Source: Clostridiaceae bacterium (GTDB lineage Bacteria > Bacillota > Clostridia > Saccharofermentanales > DTU023). Taken from it: a DNA stretch of 47,133 bases. The first letter of the stretch is position 1. Each line of letters begins with the position of its first letter. This document shows positions 42,010 to 47,133 of this stretch, piece after piece. The notes beneath the pieces were generated by a model. The model was not told where the DNA came from. It did no database searches and saw only the letters and a list, made by a program, of their open reading frames with translations. The translations under genes were made by a program, and so were the position numbers. The DNA lies in assembly GCA_012799825.1 (NCBI GenBank), contig JAAZKK010000072.1, positions 1-47,133 on the forward strand. The letters are read 5' to 3'.

Positions 42010-42121
42010 TTTAAAAGGTATAACAATGCGATTTGCGCACAAAAGGGCAAGACGCTCTGCTGTCCATACCGCATTTACGGCATGTCAAGCCGAAAATATT
42101 TTGAATATTGGGAGAGATTGT

Positions 42122-44230
42122 ATGTTATCCAATTCACTACTTAAATTTGCCGCCTCTGAGCACTGGCAGGTGTATAAAGAAGACGCCTGCGTTTTCGGCA
42201 CCGTCAACGGCTACTGCATCACCGCATCGACAAGCGACGCCCTCACTACTTTTTTTGTTCCTGTTGCCGGTATTGCACCGGAGAATCTTATTGAACTCAC
42301 GGTCTGGCTTGAGAAAACGCGTTTCCCGCTCGTGCTGATTAATTACGAAATGACAGATAATTTCATGGCTATCAGGGCGAAAGACACGGCCTTTTCCGGT
42401 ACGGCAGCACAGATGAAGCACTTCCTTGATATTCTCACCGAAAAACTCGATGAGCTTGATATCGATCCGGACGTCTGTGCCATTTGCGGGCTACCCGCAG
42501 ATCATCGCGCACTCTATGTGGGTCTCTTCTGCCATATTCACGCCGATTGCATTCATAAAGTCGGTATCGATTTTACGAATCCCAAACGCGACGTACATAG
42601 CAACGCTGTTTCTGAGATGGAACTCTTGCTTCTAAATGACGCCAATGACGCTCTCGCCGATGAAGAGCTCCCCGAGGAGCCGTCTTTGGATGAGAACGCG
42701 GATTCTCTATCCGGTAGCAACACTGTCGAATCAGCCCCGCTCATCGAAGATTCCAACATCATATCAGCAACAGCCGTAACGTCGGGTGTCGTCACGACTC
42801 TCCCCTTCTCTGATGAGATCGATCCGTCATCTACACCTTCAGATGGAGAAGAAGCAGATGATTCATCCGAGGAGCCGACACCGTCTGGCAAAAATGACAC
42901 ACCCGAACCGGTACCTGAAGAACGACTCCTAGAACTTGCCGAACCTTTTATGCCTTATGAGGAGGCTTTCCTCAGCGATCTTGCCGCTCTTATCGCCATT
43001 CCCAGTGTCCAAGGGAAAGAAGAAGAGGGTGCGCCGTTCGGTCAGGAACCGAAGCGCGCGCTTGAAACTTTTCTTTCAATGGCTGAGCGGATGGGCTTTC
43101 ACACTGTCAATGTCGACAATGTAGCAGGCTATGCCGAAATGGGATCAGGAGACGAGATGGTAGCTTGTGTATGCCATCTTGACGTCGTCCCCGCAGGCAG
43201 CGGCTGGAATCAGGATCCGTGGGAACTTATCCGCGACGGCGACACAATCTCAGGGCGCGGCGTCATAGATGACAAAGGACCTGCCCTAGCCTGTCTCTAT
43301 GCGATGAAAACACTGAAGGACGATGATCATTTTGCACCAAAACGTCGTATCCGCCTGATTGTCGGTACTAATGAAGAATCAGGAAGCCAGTGTCTTGCAC
43401 ATTACGGCCGTTTTGAAGAGATACCTGTCGCAGGTTTTACGCCTGACGCCCGCTTTCCAGCCGTCTACGCTGAAAAGGGCATCGCGCATCTTAGACTCAC
43501 CATGAAACGTCATAGTGAAGATGCCATTAAGGAAGCGTCTGCAGGCAGTGCGGTTAACATGGTTCCAGGATCCTGCGAAGTCCTTTTAAAAGATGGCACG
43601 CCGATCACATATCAAGGGCAAATGGCACATGCCAGTGCACCTGAACTCGGTATTAACGCCATTGCGGAAGCCATGGACGCGCTTGCGACAATGTTTGAAA
43701 AAGACGGCCGTCAAGATGCATTTGTCGATTTCTTCAACACCGTGCTCGGACGGGAAACCGACGGTCAATCTATAGGATTCGCTTTTTGCGATGAGACAGG
43801 AGCGACGACCGTCAACGCCGGACTTCTTTCCATCGACGAGAACGAGGCCGCATTGTCACTTGACATACGCTATTCGGCACACCTTGATTACGAGGAAGCA
43901 AAGACACGCCTCGTAGCTATTGTTGAACCTTTTGATGTAGACGTCTTCTGGGAGAGCCATGTTTCGCCGCTTTACCTTCCAAAGACATCGCCGCTTATCC
44001 GTGCACTGATGGACACGTACACGGAACTCACTGGTACTTCAGGCGAACCGCTAACGATGGGCGGCGGCACCTACGCCCGCACACTCCCCAATATATGCGC
44101 ATTCGGATCAGTCTTCCCCGGGCAACCTGAGGTAGCGCATCAAGCGAATGAACATGTAAAGATAGCGGAACTTCTCGCAGGCGCCAGGCTCTACCAAGAA
44201 GCTCTTAAGCGTCTTGCCAACTGGGAATGA
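42122..44230 (+). CDS. M20 family dipeptidase (PepV-like) with extra N-terminal region
   Basis: 702 residues from the ATG at 42122 (GGGAGAG five bases upstream). An in-frame ATG at 42026 with AAAAGG would add 32 basic residues, so the start is not certain. The N-terminal part of about 145 residues has a cysteine/histidine cluster: C119-x2-C122-x14-C137-H-x-H140-x2-C143. A Ser/Asp/Glu/Pro-rich linker follows to about 270. The C-terminal peptidase has H352-L-D354 in CHLDVVP, GRGVIDDKGP, and E418-E419 in NEESGSQ. These are the M20 catalytic motifs, and the HLDVVP/DDKGP pattern fits the PepV/Sapep dipeptidases, zinc or manganese enzymes that hydrolyse dipeptides in the cytosol. The terminator at 44315 ends the gene. 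Confidence 0.88.
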   Translation: MLSNSLLKFAASEHWQVYKEDACVFGTVNGYCITASTSDALTTFFVPVAGIAPENLIELTVWLEKTRFPLVLINYEMTDNFMAIRAKDTAFSGTAAQMKHFLDILTEKLDELDIDPDVCAICGLPADHRALYVGLFCHIHADCIHKVGIDFTNPKRDVHSNAVSEMELLLLNDANDALADEELPEEPSLDENADSLSGSNTVESAPLIEDSNIISATAVTSGVVTTLPFSDEIDPSSTPSDGEEADDSSEEPTPSGKNDTPEPVPEERLLELAEPFMPYEEAFLSDLAALIAIPSVQGKEEEGAPFGQEPKRALETFLSMAERMGFHTVNVDNVAGYAEMGSGDEMVACVCHLDVVPAGSGWNQDPWELIRDGDTISGRGVIDDKGPALACLYAMKTLKDDDHFAPKRRIRLIVGTNEESGSQCLAHYGRFEEIPVAGFTPDARFPAVYAEKGIAHLRLTMKRHSEDAIKEASAGSAVNMVPGSCEVLLKDGTPITYQGQMAHASAPELGINAIAEAMDALATMFEKDGRQDAFVDFFNTVLGRETDGQSIGFAFCDETGATTVNAGLLSIDENEAALSLDIRYSAHLDYEEAKTRLVAIVEPFDVDVFWESHVSPLYLPKTSPLIRALMDTYTELTGTSGEPLTMGGGTYARTLPNICAFGSVFPGQPEVAHQANEHVKIAELLAGARLYQEALKRLANWE

Positions 44231-44398: not shown

Positions 44399-44428
44399 TT
44401 GTCAGTTTATTCTTTTCTATGTTAGAGT
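44399..44428 (+). promoter_or_regulatory. Promoter of the zinc-uptake operon
   Basis: TTGTCA (44399-44404), 18-bp spacer ending in TGT, then TAGAGT (44423-44428), an extended -10 form. The start of transcription would fall near 44435 inside the palindrome at 44425-44444. The leader is about 150 nt. Confidence 0.5.
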
Positions 44429-44444
44429 TAGTCATGACTAACTC
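44425..44444. promoter_or_regulatory. Perfect 20-bp palindrome, probable metalloregulator operator
   Basis: GAGTTAGTCATGACTAACTC is identical to its own reverse complement and overlaps the -10 box and predicted transcript start of the zinc operon. A repressor bound here would block transcription. Whether it is Zur, AdcR-like (MarR) or DtxR/MntR-like cannot be told from this window; it does not match the Bacillus Zur or streptococcal AdcR consensus as I know them. Confidence 0.65.
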
Positions 44445-44582: not shown

Positions 44583-45260
44583 ATGATGTATTTAAAGAAG
44601 TTATTGGTAGTAGGCGCACTCGTTTTGAGCCTCTCTTTAGCTGCTTGTAACGGTCAGACTCCACCTGATTCGACTGACGCGCCGACTCCGTCTAATCTGC
44701 CGAAACAGATGCAGCAACAAGATCAACCTGATGCCTCTCTGGCGGATTGGGACGGAACTTGGAGGAACATGATCAGCTTCTTAAGTGAAGATGACGAAGG
44801 TTTACGTGAGGCGTTGGAACATGTAGCTGAAGAACACGATATGACGGTAGATGAATATATCGAACATGAGAAGGAAGAGAGTGTACCCTTCGAAAAAATG
44901 GTGATCGACAGCAATGCGGAGACGATTACCTTCTACGAACTATACAGGGACACAGACGGTAAGACGGCTAAGTATACCTATAAGGAGGCCTTGGAATTTT
45001 CTCATGGCGGCGCCAACTTTAATTGGTATGTTTTCGAAACCAAAGATGCTTCTGATCATCCTATTGTTCTCCTAATGGAGATCCATGGCGAAGAAAACAT
45101 GGCGCACTTCCACGTTCGTGCAGCAAAGTCAATTGATGAAGCCATGAAGGATGAGCATTGGTATCCAACATTCATGGACGAGAACATTCCTCTTTCCATG
45201 ATTGCTGAAGAATTAGAACATCACGATGAATCTCATGGACATCATGACCATGACCATTAA
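44583..45260 (+). CDS. zinT: ZinT-like metal-binding lipoprotein
   Basis: 225 residues with GGAGG eight bases before the ATG. The lipoprotein signal ends in SLAAC-NG (Cys22), followed by a Pro/Gln/Thr-rich linker. The rest resembles the ZinT/YodA calycin domain: LADWDGTWRNM, ETITFYELYR, YTYKEALEF, FNWYVFETKD, MAHFHVRAAKSIDEA and HWYPTFM. HFH is a typical metal ligand set. The last 14 residues are mostly His and Asp/Glu. ZinT proteins bind zinc under scarcity and pass it to the ABC system; in streptococci this domain is fused to AdcA, whereas here it is a separate lipoprotein upstream of the binding protein gene. Confidence 0.88.
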   Translation: MMYLKKLLVVGALVLSLSLAACNGQTPPDSTDAPTPSNLPKQMQQQDQPDASLADWDGTWRNMISFLSEDDEGLREALEHVAEEHDMTVDEYIEHEKEESVPFEKMVIDSNAETITFYELYRDTDGKTAKYTYKEALEFSHGGANFNWYVFETKDASDHPIVLLMEIHGEENMAHFHVRAAKSIDEAMKDEHWYPTFMDENIPLSMIAEELEHHDESHGHHDHDH

Positions 45261-45288
45261 TGGTTGACGAAATCAGGGTTTGTCGCTT

Positions 45289-46644
45289 ATGTCATTATTT
45301 GCTTTCAAAAGCGAGAGAGACTCGGAAAGGTATCCTCTTCTCAAGAGGATCCTTTCCATTGTCCTGCTTATATCTATTGTCATGAGTATTTTTTTGCTCA
45401 GTGCCTGTCGGAGAAATGAGCAGGTCATAGACGGTTCTCTGGTATATACCTCTTTTTATCCCGTTTACGATTTAACCAAATCCGTTGCGGAAGGAACGGA
45501 TATTCATATCGATATTCTAATGCCGGCGGAACAAGATCCCCATATGTGGGAACCGACTCCTCGCGATCTTCAAAAATTGGCCGTTGCCGACATGCTTATA
45601 GTTAATGGGGCTAACATGGAAGAACGTTGGTTAGCCGGTATAAGAGAAAGCTTGCCCAATTTAAAAATTGTCGATCTATCGGAAAATGTTGACTTGATAA
45701 CGTATAAGGGACAGGCTTCGCTGGGCGAATTTCAGTATATGGTCAAACTGGATCTGGTGGGAAACCGGGTTTATCCCATCGAATTCGGTCATACCCATGA
45801 AGAGTTTATGCGAATTGCATTTATTAAGACTGATGGTCAAGAAAAGAAAGAGGATATGATCGACTACGCCAAAGCCGTCATGCTGGATCAAGGAGAGACG
45901 GTGGAACAATACAGTTTGATCGAAGTCGAGAACGAAAAGGTCTATCAAATGAAGATGGGTCATACTTCCGGAATGATGTATTATCAAGTTCCTGAAAGCG
46001 GCAGCTACTACCTGATATCGGATCGCTTATCAGAAGCGCTGTTAAGTTATCGCCTCTTAGAGGAAGAAGGCGGCGAAGACCTGCCTGTGGAAGTGATTCT
46101 GACGGGTTCCACCTCAAGCTTGGACAAAACAACGTACGACCCGCATTCTTGGATGTCGACGATCAATGCCAAGATTTATCTTAATGCGATCAATCAAAGT
46201 CTGGCCGCGTTTTACCCCCATTACTCCAAAAAATTTAATAGAAATAAGGTTCGAATGGTCAACGAACTGGCTCTTTTGGAGCATGAATTCAAGGATAAAT
46301 TCGCTGCCAAGGAGAACAAGGTCTTCGTTGTTACCCACTATGCCTATGCCTATTTGGCCAGAGACTTCGGCCTGGATCAATACCCCCTTCAGGGATTAAC
46401 CAGCATGGGATCGATCAGCCTGCATACCCTCCGACGTGCCATCGCCTTTTGCAGGGAAAACCATGTGAGCAAAATTTTCTATGAAGCAAAAGGCAATAGC
46501 AGAGACGCTTACACCATTGCATGGGAAATCGGAGGCGATGCCGACACCTTGAACTCTATGGAGTTCGTCAGCAAAAGCGAGGAGGTCCGATATATCGATA
46601 TCATGCGGGACAATTTAGAACGATTAGAACAATCAATGAGGTGA
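45289..46644 (+). CDS. znuA: Zinc ABC transporter substrate-binding lipoprotein (ZnuA/TroA family) with a large insertion
   Basis: 451 residues from the ATG at 45289; a TTG at 45280 is too close to the AGGG. The lipobox is LLSAC-RR (Cys40). TroA-fold features are SFYPVYDLTKSVAEG, DPHMWEPTPRDL with H85, YDPHSWMSTINAKIY with H286, VVTHYAYAYLARDFGL with H350, and IFYEAKGNSRDA. These supply the usual three His plus one acidic metal ligand. Between residues 138 and 282 lies an insertion in place of the short His-rich loop of typical ZnuA. It contains RVYPIEFGHTH (160-170) and KVYQMKMGHTS (217-227), two related motifs. The preceding zinT and following znuC indicate zinc uptake, though Mn is possible for the family. 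Confidence 0.9.
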   Translation: MSLFAFKSERDSERYPLLKRILSIVLLISIVMSIFLLSACRRNEQVIDGSLVYTSFYPVYDLTKSVAEGTDIHIDILMPAEQDPHMWEPTPRDLQKLAVADMLIVNGANMEERWLAGIRESLPNLKIVDLSENVDLITYKGQASLGEFQYMVKLDLVGNRVYPIEFGHTHEEFMRIAFIKTDGQEKKEDMIDYAKAVMLDQGETVEQYSLIEVENEKVYQMKMGHTSGMMYYQVPESGSYYLISDRLSEALLSYRLLEEEGGEDLPVEVILTGSTSSLDKTTYDPHSWMSTINAKIYLNAINQSLAAFYPHYSKKFNRNKVRMVNELALLEHEFKDKFAAKENKVFVVTHYAYAYLARDFGLDQYPLQGLTSMGSISLHTLRRAIAFCRENHVSKIFYEAKGNSRDAYTIAWEIGGDADTLNSMEFVSKSEEVRYIDIMRDNLERLEQSMR

Positions 46645-46649
46645 ACAGA

Positions 46650-47133
46650 ATGAGTGCAAACGCTTTGCAAGTGTCGAAGCTGTCGTTTTCATATACAGAA
46701 GATCCGGTTCTTACGGATGTAAATTTTAAACTTCCCGAGCAGGAATGTATGGTCATTTTCGGCAGCAACGGCTCCGGTAAATCTACCTTGCTGCGCCTAA
46801 TTCTAGGACAACTTCGTGCCAAGTCGGGCGATATAGAAATTTTCGGGCAGGAAGTTCAAAACAAGAAAAATTGGCAAGATGTCGGCTATGTTCCGCAAAC
46901 AAATGTGACCAAAAGTGTGGCCTTTCCGGTTACCAGCGCAGAAATATTAGCCAGCAGTCGTTATAGATATTTGAAGGGTTTTAGAATTGCTCGCAAAAAT
47001 GAGTATGAATCGGCTCTGAAAGGGCTGGAGCGTTTTGGCTTGGCCGAGTACGCCCAAGTTCCGTTCAGTGAATTATCCGGCGGACTGCAGCAACGGGTCA
47101 TGATTGCCCGCGCCATGCTGGACAAACCCAGGA
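46650..47133 (+). CDS. znuC: Zinc ABC transporter ATP-binding protein ZnuC (partial, runs off the edge)
   Basis: 161 codons are visible, with no stop. GAGGTGAAC precedes the ATG, which is two codons after the znuA stop. Walker A is GSNGSGKSTLL, the Q-loop is VGYVPQ, and the ABC signature is LSGGLQQRVMIARAML. The order binding protein, then ATPase, fits the Znu/Adc zinc importer. The permease (znuB) should follow beyond the window. Confidence 0.93.
   Translation, partial: MSANALQVSKLSFSYTEDPVLTDVNFKLPEQECMVIFGSNGSGKSTLLRLILGQLRAKSGDIEIFGQEVQNKKNWQDVGYVPQTNVTKSVAFPVTSAEILASSRYRYLKGFRIARKNEYESALKGLERFGLAEYAQVPFSELSGGLQQRVMIARAMLDKPR

Follow-up and report, generated by a model that had tools for sequence, protein, structure and literature searches.

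The zinc receptor AdcA of Streptococcus carries a His-rich loop (residues 120–136; ligand His140) and a C-terminal ZinT domain. The interface with the ZinT domain includes this loop, and zinc recruitment is aided by both parts (PMC7858048). In Gram-negative bacteria, ZnuA and ZinT are separate proteins, whose contact is thought to be made via the loop slot; a SAXS model places the ZnuA loop in the cleft of ZinT (PMC6689063). The zinc donors AztD and PhtD hand over the metal outside the cytoplasm to a receptor of cluster A-I. In published descriptions of the NikKMLQO system, K and L are additional components of the periplasm (PMC545781, PMC2667541), of which NikK is diverse in sequence (PMC2667541).

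Here, we describe a receptor gene of a Clostridiaceae bacterium (GCA_012799825.1, contig JAAZKK010000072.1) that compares with these systems in an unusual way. The window, i.e. the whole stretch of DNA that was analysed, comprises positions 1–47,133 (47,133 nucleotides). Its predicted receptor is, like AdcA, a zinc-type cluster A-I protein with recruitment parts in which ZinT is involved, but it differs from AdcA in that ZinT has a gene of its own and an uncatalogued folded domain stands where the His-rich loop would be. The separate ZinT is a trait shared with the Gram-negative ZnuA and ZinT, from which the window differs in the folded domain that stands for the His-rich loop, in the location of zinT within the znu operon, and in that both proteins are predicted lipoproteins.

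The receptor and the position of its insert

The receptor gene and its landmarks are as follows:

45289–46644, + strand: ZnuA-type zinc receptor lipoprotein (PF01297, E = 8.8e-58; YcdH/AdcA alignments; lipobox LSAC)
45541–45543, + strand: H85, predicted zinc ligand 1 (DPHMW; AdcA alignment)
45718–46128, + strand: inserted domain, residues ~144–280, in the slot of the His-rich loop (the ZnuA alignment breaks here; homologous domains occur elsewhere)
45766–45798, + strand: motif 1, RVYPIEFGHTH, residues 160–170, loop 1 with H168 and H170
45937–45969, + strand: motif 2, KVYQMKMGHTS, residues 217–227, loop 2 with H225
46144–46146, + strand: H286, predicted zinc ligand 2 (DPHSW), right behind the insert (alignment and conservation)
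46336–46338, + strand: H350, predicted zinc ligand 3 (VVTHYA; alignment)
46483–46485, + strand: E399, predicted zinc ligand 4 (FYEAKG; alignment)

The reading frame is also open from a TTG codon at 45280; the ATG at 45289, which gives a protein of 451 residues, was used for numbering. By every core test of its sequence, this protein is a ZnuA. The PF01297 match (196 bits vs a cut-off of 29) spans the whole receptor with the insert skipped, and the four predicted ligands, three His and one acidic residue (H85, H286, H350 and E399), align with the zinc-type set of AdcA and YcdH. Two close insert-bearing ZnuA proteins (loci L008 and L009) have a hydrophobic N-terminus that lacks the lipobox Cys of the window copy.

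Matches to the structurally solved zinc receptors YcdH and AdcA (phmmer) stop at about residue 137–141 and restart at about residue 282, right ahead of the DPH-W ligand motif, and the insert therefore takes the place of the His-rich loop. The His-rich loop that ZnuA proteins often, though not always, have ahead of the second His ligand is absent; a domain of 135–145 residues with few His is found instead, and the insert of the window is itself not His-rich. The spacing between the lobe-1 His and the DxHxW motif is about 197–210 residues in insert-bearing receptors vs about 77–147 in ordinary ZnuA proteins of the same family. The first-pass annotation had reported a 145-residue insert with both motifs in a ZnuA-like protein, and this description is exact: with ATG numbering, residues 138–282 correspond to positions 45700–46134. 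It had located the insert near the junction of the two lobes, and in this respect it needs to be corrected. By analogy with the AdcA loop 120–136 and His140 (PMC7858048), the slot belongs to the N-terminal lobe and is next to a metal ligand.

Conserved residues and predicted fold of the insert

The likeness of the two motifs had been taken for an internal duplication, a reading that the comparisons do not support. The motifs are identical at 5 of 9 positions, but a pair of 9-mers at least as good turns up in 192 of 200 shuffled versions of the whole protein and in 46 of 200 shuffled inserts, and the two halves of the insert, compared as profiles, match weakly (only 18 columns aligned, 58% probability). 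As the likeness is not above chance, duplication was rejected as the key feature of the insert.

Conservation of individual residues, by contrast, exceeds chance in the zinc-linked relatives (n = 9; a ZinT fusion in one case and ZnuA inserts in the other eight). All nine have H168, H170 and H225; the GHTH of loop 1 and the GH or AH of loop 2 are likewise kept in 9/9, while the Thr of the second GHT is present in only 4/9. The positions of H168 and H225, His in 9/9 zinc-linked proteins, are never occupied by His in the 13 members of the ECF group described below (0/13). All 13 share a helix His and a Glu-His pair instead, both of which are absent from the zinc-linked group, the window insert included. 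We infer that the two conserved sets may serve as alternative metal ligands.

Profile searches with the insert found no Pfam, NCBIfam or PHROG family above cut-off and nothing credible in the PDB (best E = 0.4). Pfam matches of single members of the family (isocitrate DH C-terminal, PA14, DUF5004, etc.) were weak, below cut-off and not family-wide, and were rejected. Neither a scan of viral contigs nor a tblastn search of plasmids returned relatives of the insert.

The structure of the insert alone, predicted from four sequences, is a β-sandwich with helices (pLDDT of 67); an AF2 model of the full-length receptor, also from four sequences, had a pLDDT of 40 and was unusable. In VIA-align, the insert model scores best against GOLD domains from SEC14-like proteins (Z = 6.0, 3.2 Å, 92 residues, 15% identity), a similarity that may mean only a common arrangement at Z below 8, and a model with a pLDDT of 67 excludes no fold family. 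The list also holds p24, GPR180 and TMEM87A, and the best Foldseek match of the same model (pLDDT of 67) has E = 0.034. The GOLD domain (SEC14-like, p24) has a β-sandwich arrangement similar to that of this weak model; no sequence kinship between the two was found.

The β-sandwich, predicted at moderate confidence, and the conservation across distant relatives point to a folded module, as the first-pass annotation had suggested, and not to a disordered loop; nor did the segment prove to be a known annotated subdomain of any Pfam, NCBIfam, PHROG or PDB family. Judged by its sequence relatives, the insert is a real, distinct and undescribed domain family, which may have been noted outside the libraries and open-access papers searched.

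Distribution and evolution of the domain

Genome searches with growing profiles found the domain both alone and in other proteins, in four settings. It is inserted in ZnuA in 7 of the 188 genomes of the order to which the window genome belongs, and also in three public Christensenellaceae MAG contigs. A distant ZnuA group (genomes G476 and G403) has it in the same slot, where it is followed by a short His-rich stretch. In a chain encoded by genome G048, the domain is N-terminal to a strong ZinT domain (PF09223, E = 5.7e-71); this fusion (L059, 3–1016; G048:C10) is His-rich at its start and cut by the contig edge. Finally, there are standalone proteins, for which NCBIfam gave no match; most of them combine a signal of the lipoprotein type with His-rich stretches.

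Of the 16 standalone loci, 12 adjoin a CbiM-type gene, and most of these carry NikL, CbiQ and CbiO as well, typically in the order CbiQ–CbiO–domain–CbiM–NikL. The CbiM-, CbiQ- and NikL-like neighbours were confirmed by profiles in sampled loci. At two of the 16 loci (G305 and G270), a PF01497-type binding protein is encoded downstream of the standalone domain; in G305, the domain possibly works with a third class of importer. The stretch read in G305 (L058) contains ABC importer genes beside the PF01497-type protein and, farther upstream, a NikL-like ORF. Two standalone ORFs, those of G347 (L055) and G634 (L054), look like orphans with no recognised metal transporter nearby; the ORF of G634 stops early.

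Since it is encoded beside CbiM, NikL, CbiQ and CbiO, the standalone domain appears to take the place of NikK. The likeness to NikK of NikKMLQO is one of position: the standalone relatives are extracytoplasmic and occupy the same operon place beside M and L, whereas the window copy lies in a zinc receptor. Because the same domain stands alone beside Ni/Co transporters, resides in the ZnuA slot and is fused to ZinT, we regard it as a putative module for metal capture that these systems share.

In a tree of the ZnuA core (39 sequences, with long branches), the insert-bearing receptors of the order form one clade (support of 100/99), which stands apart from the ordinary ZnuA proteins additionally encoded by several of these genomes. 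The receptors of G476 and G403 sit elsewhere, which forces at least two changes. A tree of the domain itself separates the window group and the ZinT fusion from the ECF forms and the G476/G403 domains (98/96). The simplest reading of these trees, which is not proof, is that the domain entered the same ZnuA slot twice, separately.

Association with ZinT

The receptor gene is flanked by the following features:

44425–44444, no strand: perfect palindrome GAGTTAGTCATGACTAACTC, candidate operator, ~140 bases upstream of zinT
44583–45260, + strand: ZinT-like lipoprotein with a His-rich C-terminal tail, directly upstream of the receptor (PF09223, E = 3.2e-13)
46650–47133, + strand: ZnuC-like ABC ATPase, truncated where the contig stops (PF00005, E = 1.8e-25)

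The ZinT-like protein scores 50 bits vs a cut-off of 27, contains the His cluster H...HFH (as HGEENMAHFH) and is encoded by an ORF of its own, not fused to the receptor. At three further loci (L008, L009 and L061), an ATPase and a permease-like ORF are found behind the receptor gene, and a gene block zinT–znuA–znuC(–znuB) is conserved around the insert-bearing receptor. Such sites also occur upstream of zinT at other loci: in L008 and L009, AGTTAGGCAAGCCTAACT precedes the gene by about 40 bases, and looser TTAG/CTAA sites are present in L005 and L061. These sites are candidate operators of a metalloregulator. Elsewhere in the window, positions 42026–44230 encode an M20-type peptidase whose N-terminal extension, unmatched and more than 300 residues long, holds a CAICGLP...HIHADC stretch resembling a small metal-binding unit.

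The tie between the insert and the upstream ZinT-like lipoprotein, suspected earlier from the window, is strengthened by the homologous domain that is fused to ZinT and by the gene order in the relatives. ZinT is directly upstream in all seven insert-bearing genomes of the order, while the only credible ZinT matches in the other 181 genomes (G016, G110 and G115) are all in-loop ZnuA–ZinT fusions. The co-occurrence of insert and ZinT has a Fisher p of ~2e-10, calculated as if the genomes were independent, i.e. ignoring their relatedness. A weak ZinT match in G148 was discarded as spurious, as its ORF shows no ZinT or ZnuA features.

In the three fusions (L063 of G016, L100 of G110 and L101 of G115), a whole ZinT domain is located within the His-loop slot of ZnuA, not at the C-terminus as in AdcA. 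The slot thus holds a folded zinc-related domain, as it does in the window, but this domain is ZinT. The in-slot ZinT of G016 itself carries a long repeat of the HEDEHDHEDEH kind. In G048 (L104/L106, G048:C60), three ZinT domains in a row, one in a 242-residue ORF and two in a 428-residue ORF, are encoded upstream of an insert-bearing ZnuA.

No ZinT was found for the insert-bearing ZnuA proteins of G476 and G403, in which H225 is also missing. The domain is therefore not solely a ZinT dock, and neither docking of ZinT nor the H168/H170/H225 set is general.

Possible function of the insert

From its slot, its operon and its conserved residues, we infer that the insert is probably an extracytoplasmic metal-recruitment and docking domain, which replaces the flexible His-rich loop of ZnuA and passes zinc to the cleft. 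Zinc would be caught by ZinT, through its His-rich tail and its site, and/or by the insert, through its two conserved GH loops (H168, H170 and H225), and the insert would also offer a docking face to ZinT. The metal would then be handed to the H85/H286/H350/E399 site and imported. In Ni/Co operons, the free form with the helix His and Glu-His set would do the same job for a CbiM-type membrane receptor. The proposed transfer resembles the handover from AztD and PhtD to their cluster A-I receptor, but no sequence link to either donor was found, and the insert is a module built into the receptor.

This proposal has to be weighed against one in which the insert binds no metal and holds ZinT or another partner at the ZnuA cleft, its GH loops being structural turns. 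The presence of ZinT upstream in 7/7 insert-bearing genomes, the position of the ZinT interface of AdcA in the same slot (PMC7858048) and, weakly, the protein-binding GOLD-like sandwiches among the fold neighbours are all consistent with such a dock. We nevertheless regard docking without metal binding as rather unlikely, since the His residues of both loops are invariant only in the zinc-linked members, the standalone relatives in Ni/Co operons are His-rich without any ZinT partner, and G476 and G403 have the insert without ZinT. The location of the insert in the N-terminal lobe, right before the ligand H286, would also suit a lid or gate that shields the cleft and sets the choice of metal or its release to the permease, with neither capture nor ZinT docking; such a lid is improbable, as it leaves the standalone and ZinT-fused forms and the co-occurrence with ZinT unexplained.

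Most relatives of the domain adjoin Ni/Co ECF transporters, and the receptor could in principle be one for nickel or cobalt that has acquired a Ni/Co-type domain. Its core ligand set is of the zinc type, ZinT is encoded upstream, and the window insert is devoid of the conserved His and Glu-His of the ECF type, all of which makes a Ni/Co receptor very improbable. That the motif repeat alone is within chance would fit a domain that is carried along neutrally and plays no part in metal uptake. We give this idea hardly any credence: the domain, with its invariant residues, has persisted in two families of the order, the same ZnuA slot was apparently entered twice, and the context is one of metal uptake in nearly all settings. 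Recruitment and docking thus remain our preferred reading.

A wider and more tentative proposal, which we consider quite possible without thinking it probable, is that an undescribed family of extracytoplasmic carrier domains for transition metals serves two unrelated classes of importer, as a free His-rich lipoprotein for the Ni/Co ECF transporter and, within ZnuA or ZinT, for the zinc ABC transporter. The ligand set, either the two GH loops or the helix His and Glu-His, would fix the metal, and the loop slot of ZnuA would be a plug-in site for His-rich loops, ZinT and this domain.

As far as sequence comparison goes, what is new here is the accessory domain, uncatalogued in the libraries searched; the ZnuA-type receptor that carries it is of a known kind. 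Debate continues on the route of zinc to ZnuA-type receptors and on the role of ZinT and His-loop parts (PMC7858048, PMC6689063). These questions could be tested cleanly in a clade that has a compact conserved domain in exchange for the loop, with ZinT always adjacent. The link of the domain to Ni/Co ECF transporters makes it a candidate soluble metal-delivery partner for these transporters, and its zinc and Ni/Co ligand sets, if they are such, offer a natural comparison for the choice of metal.
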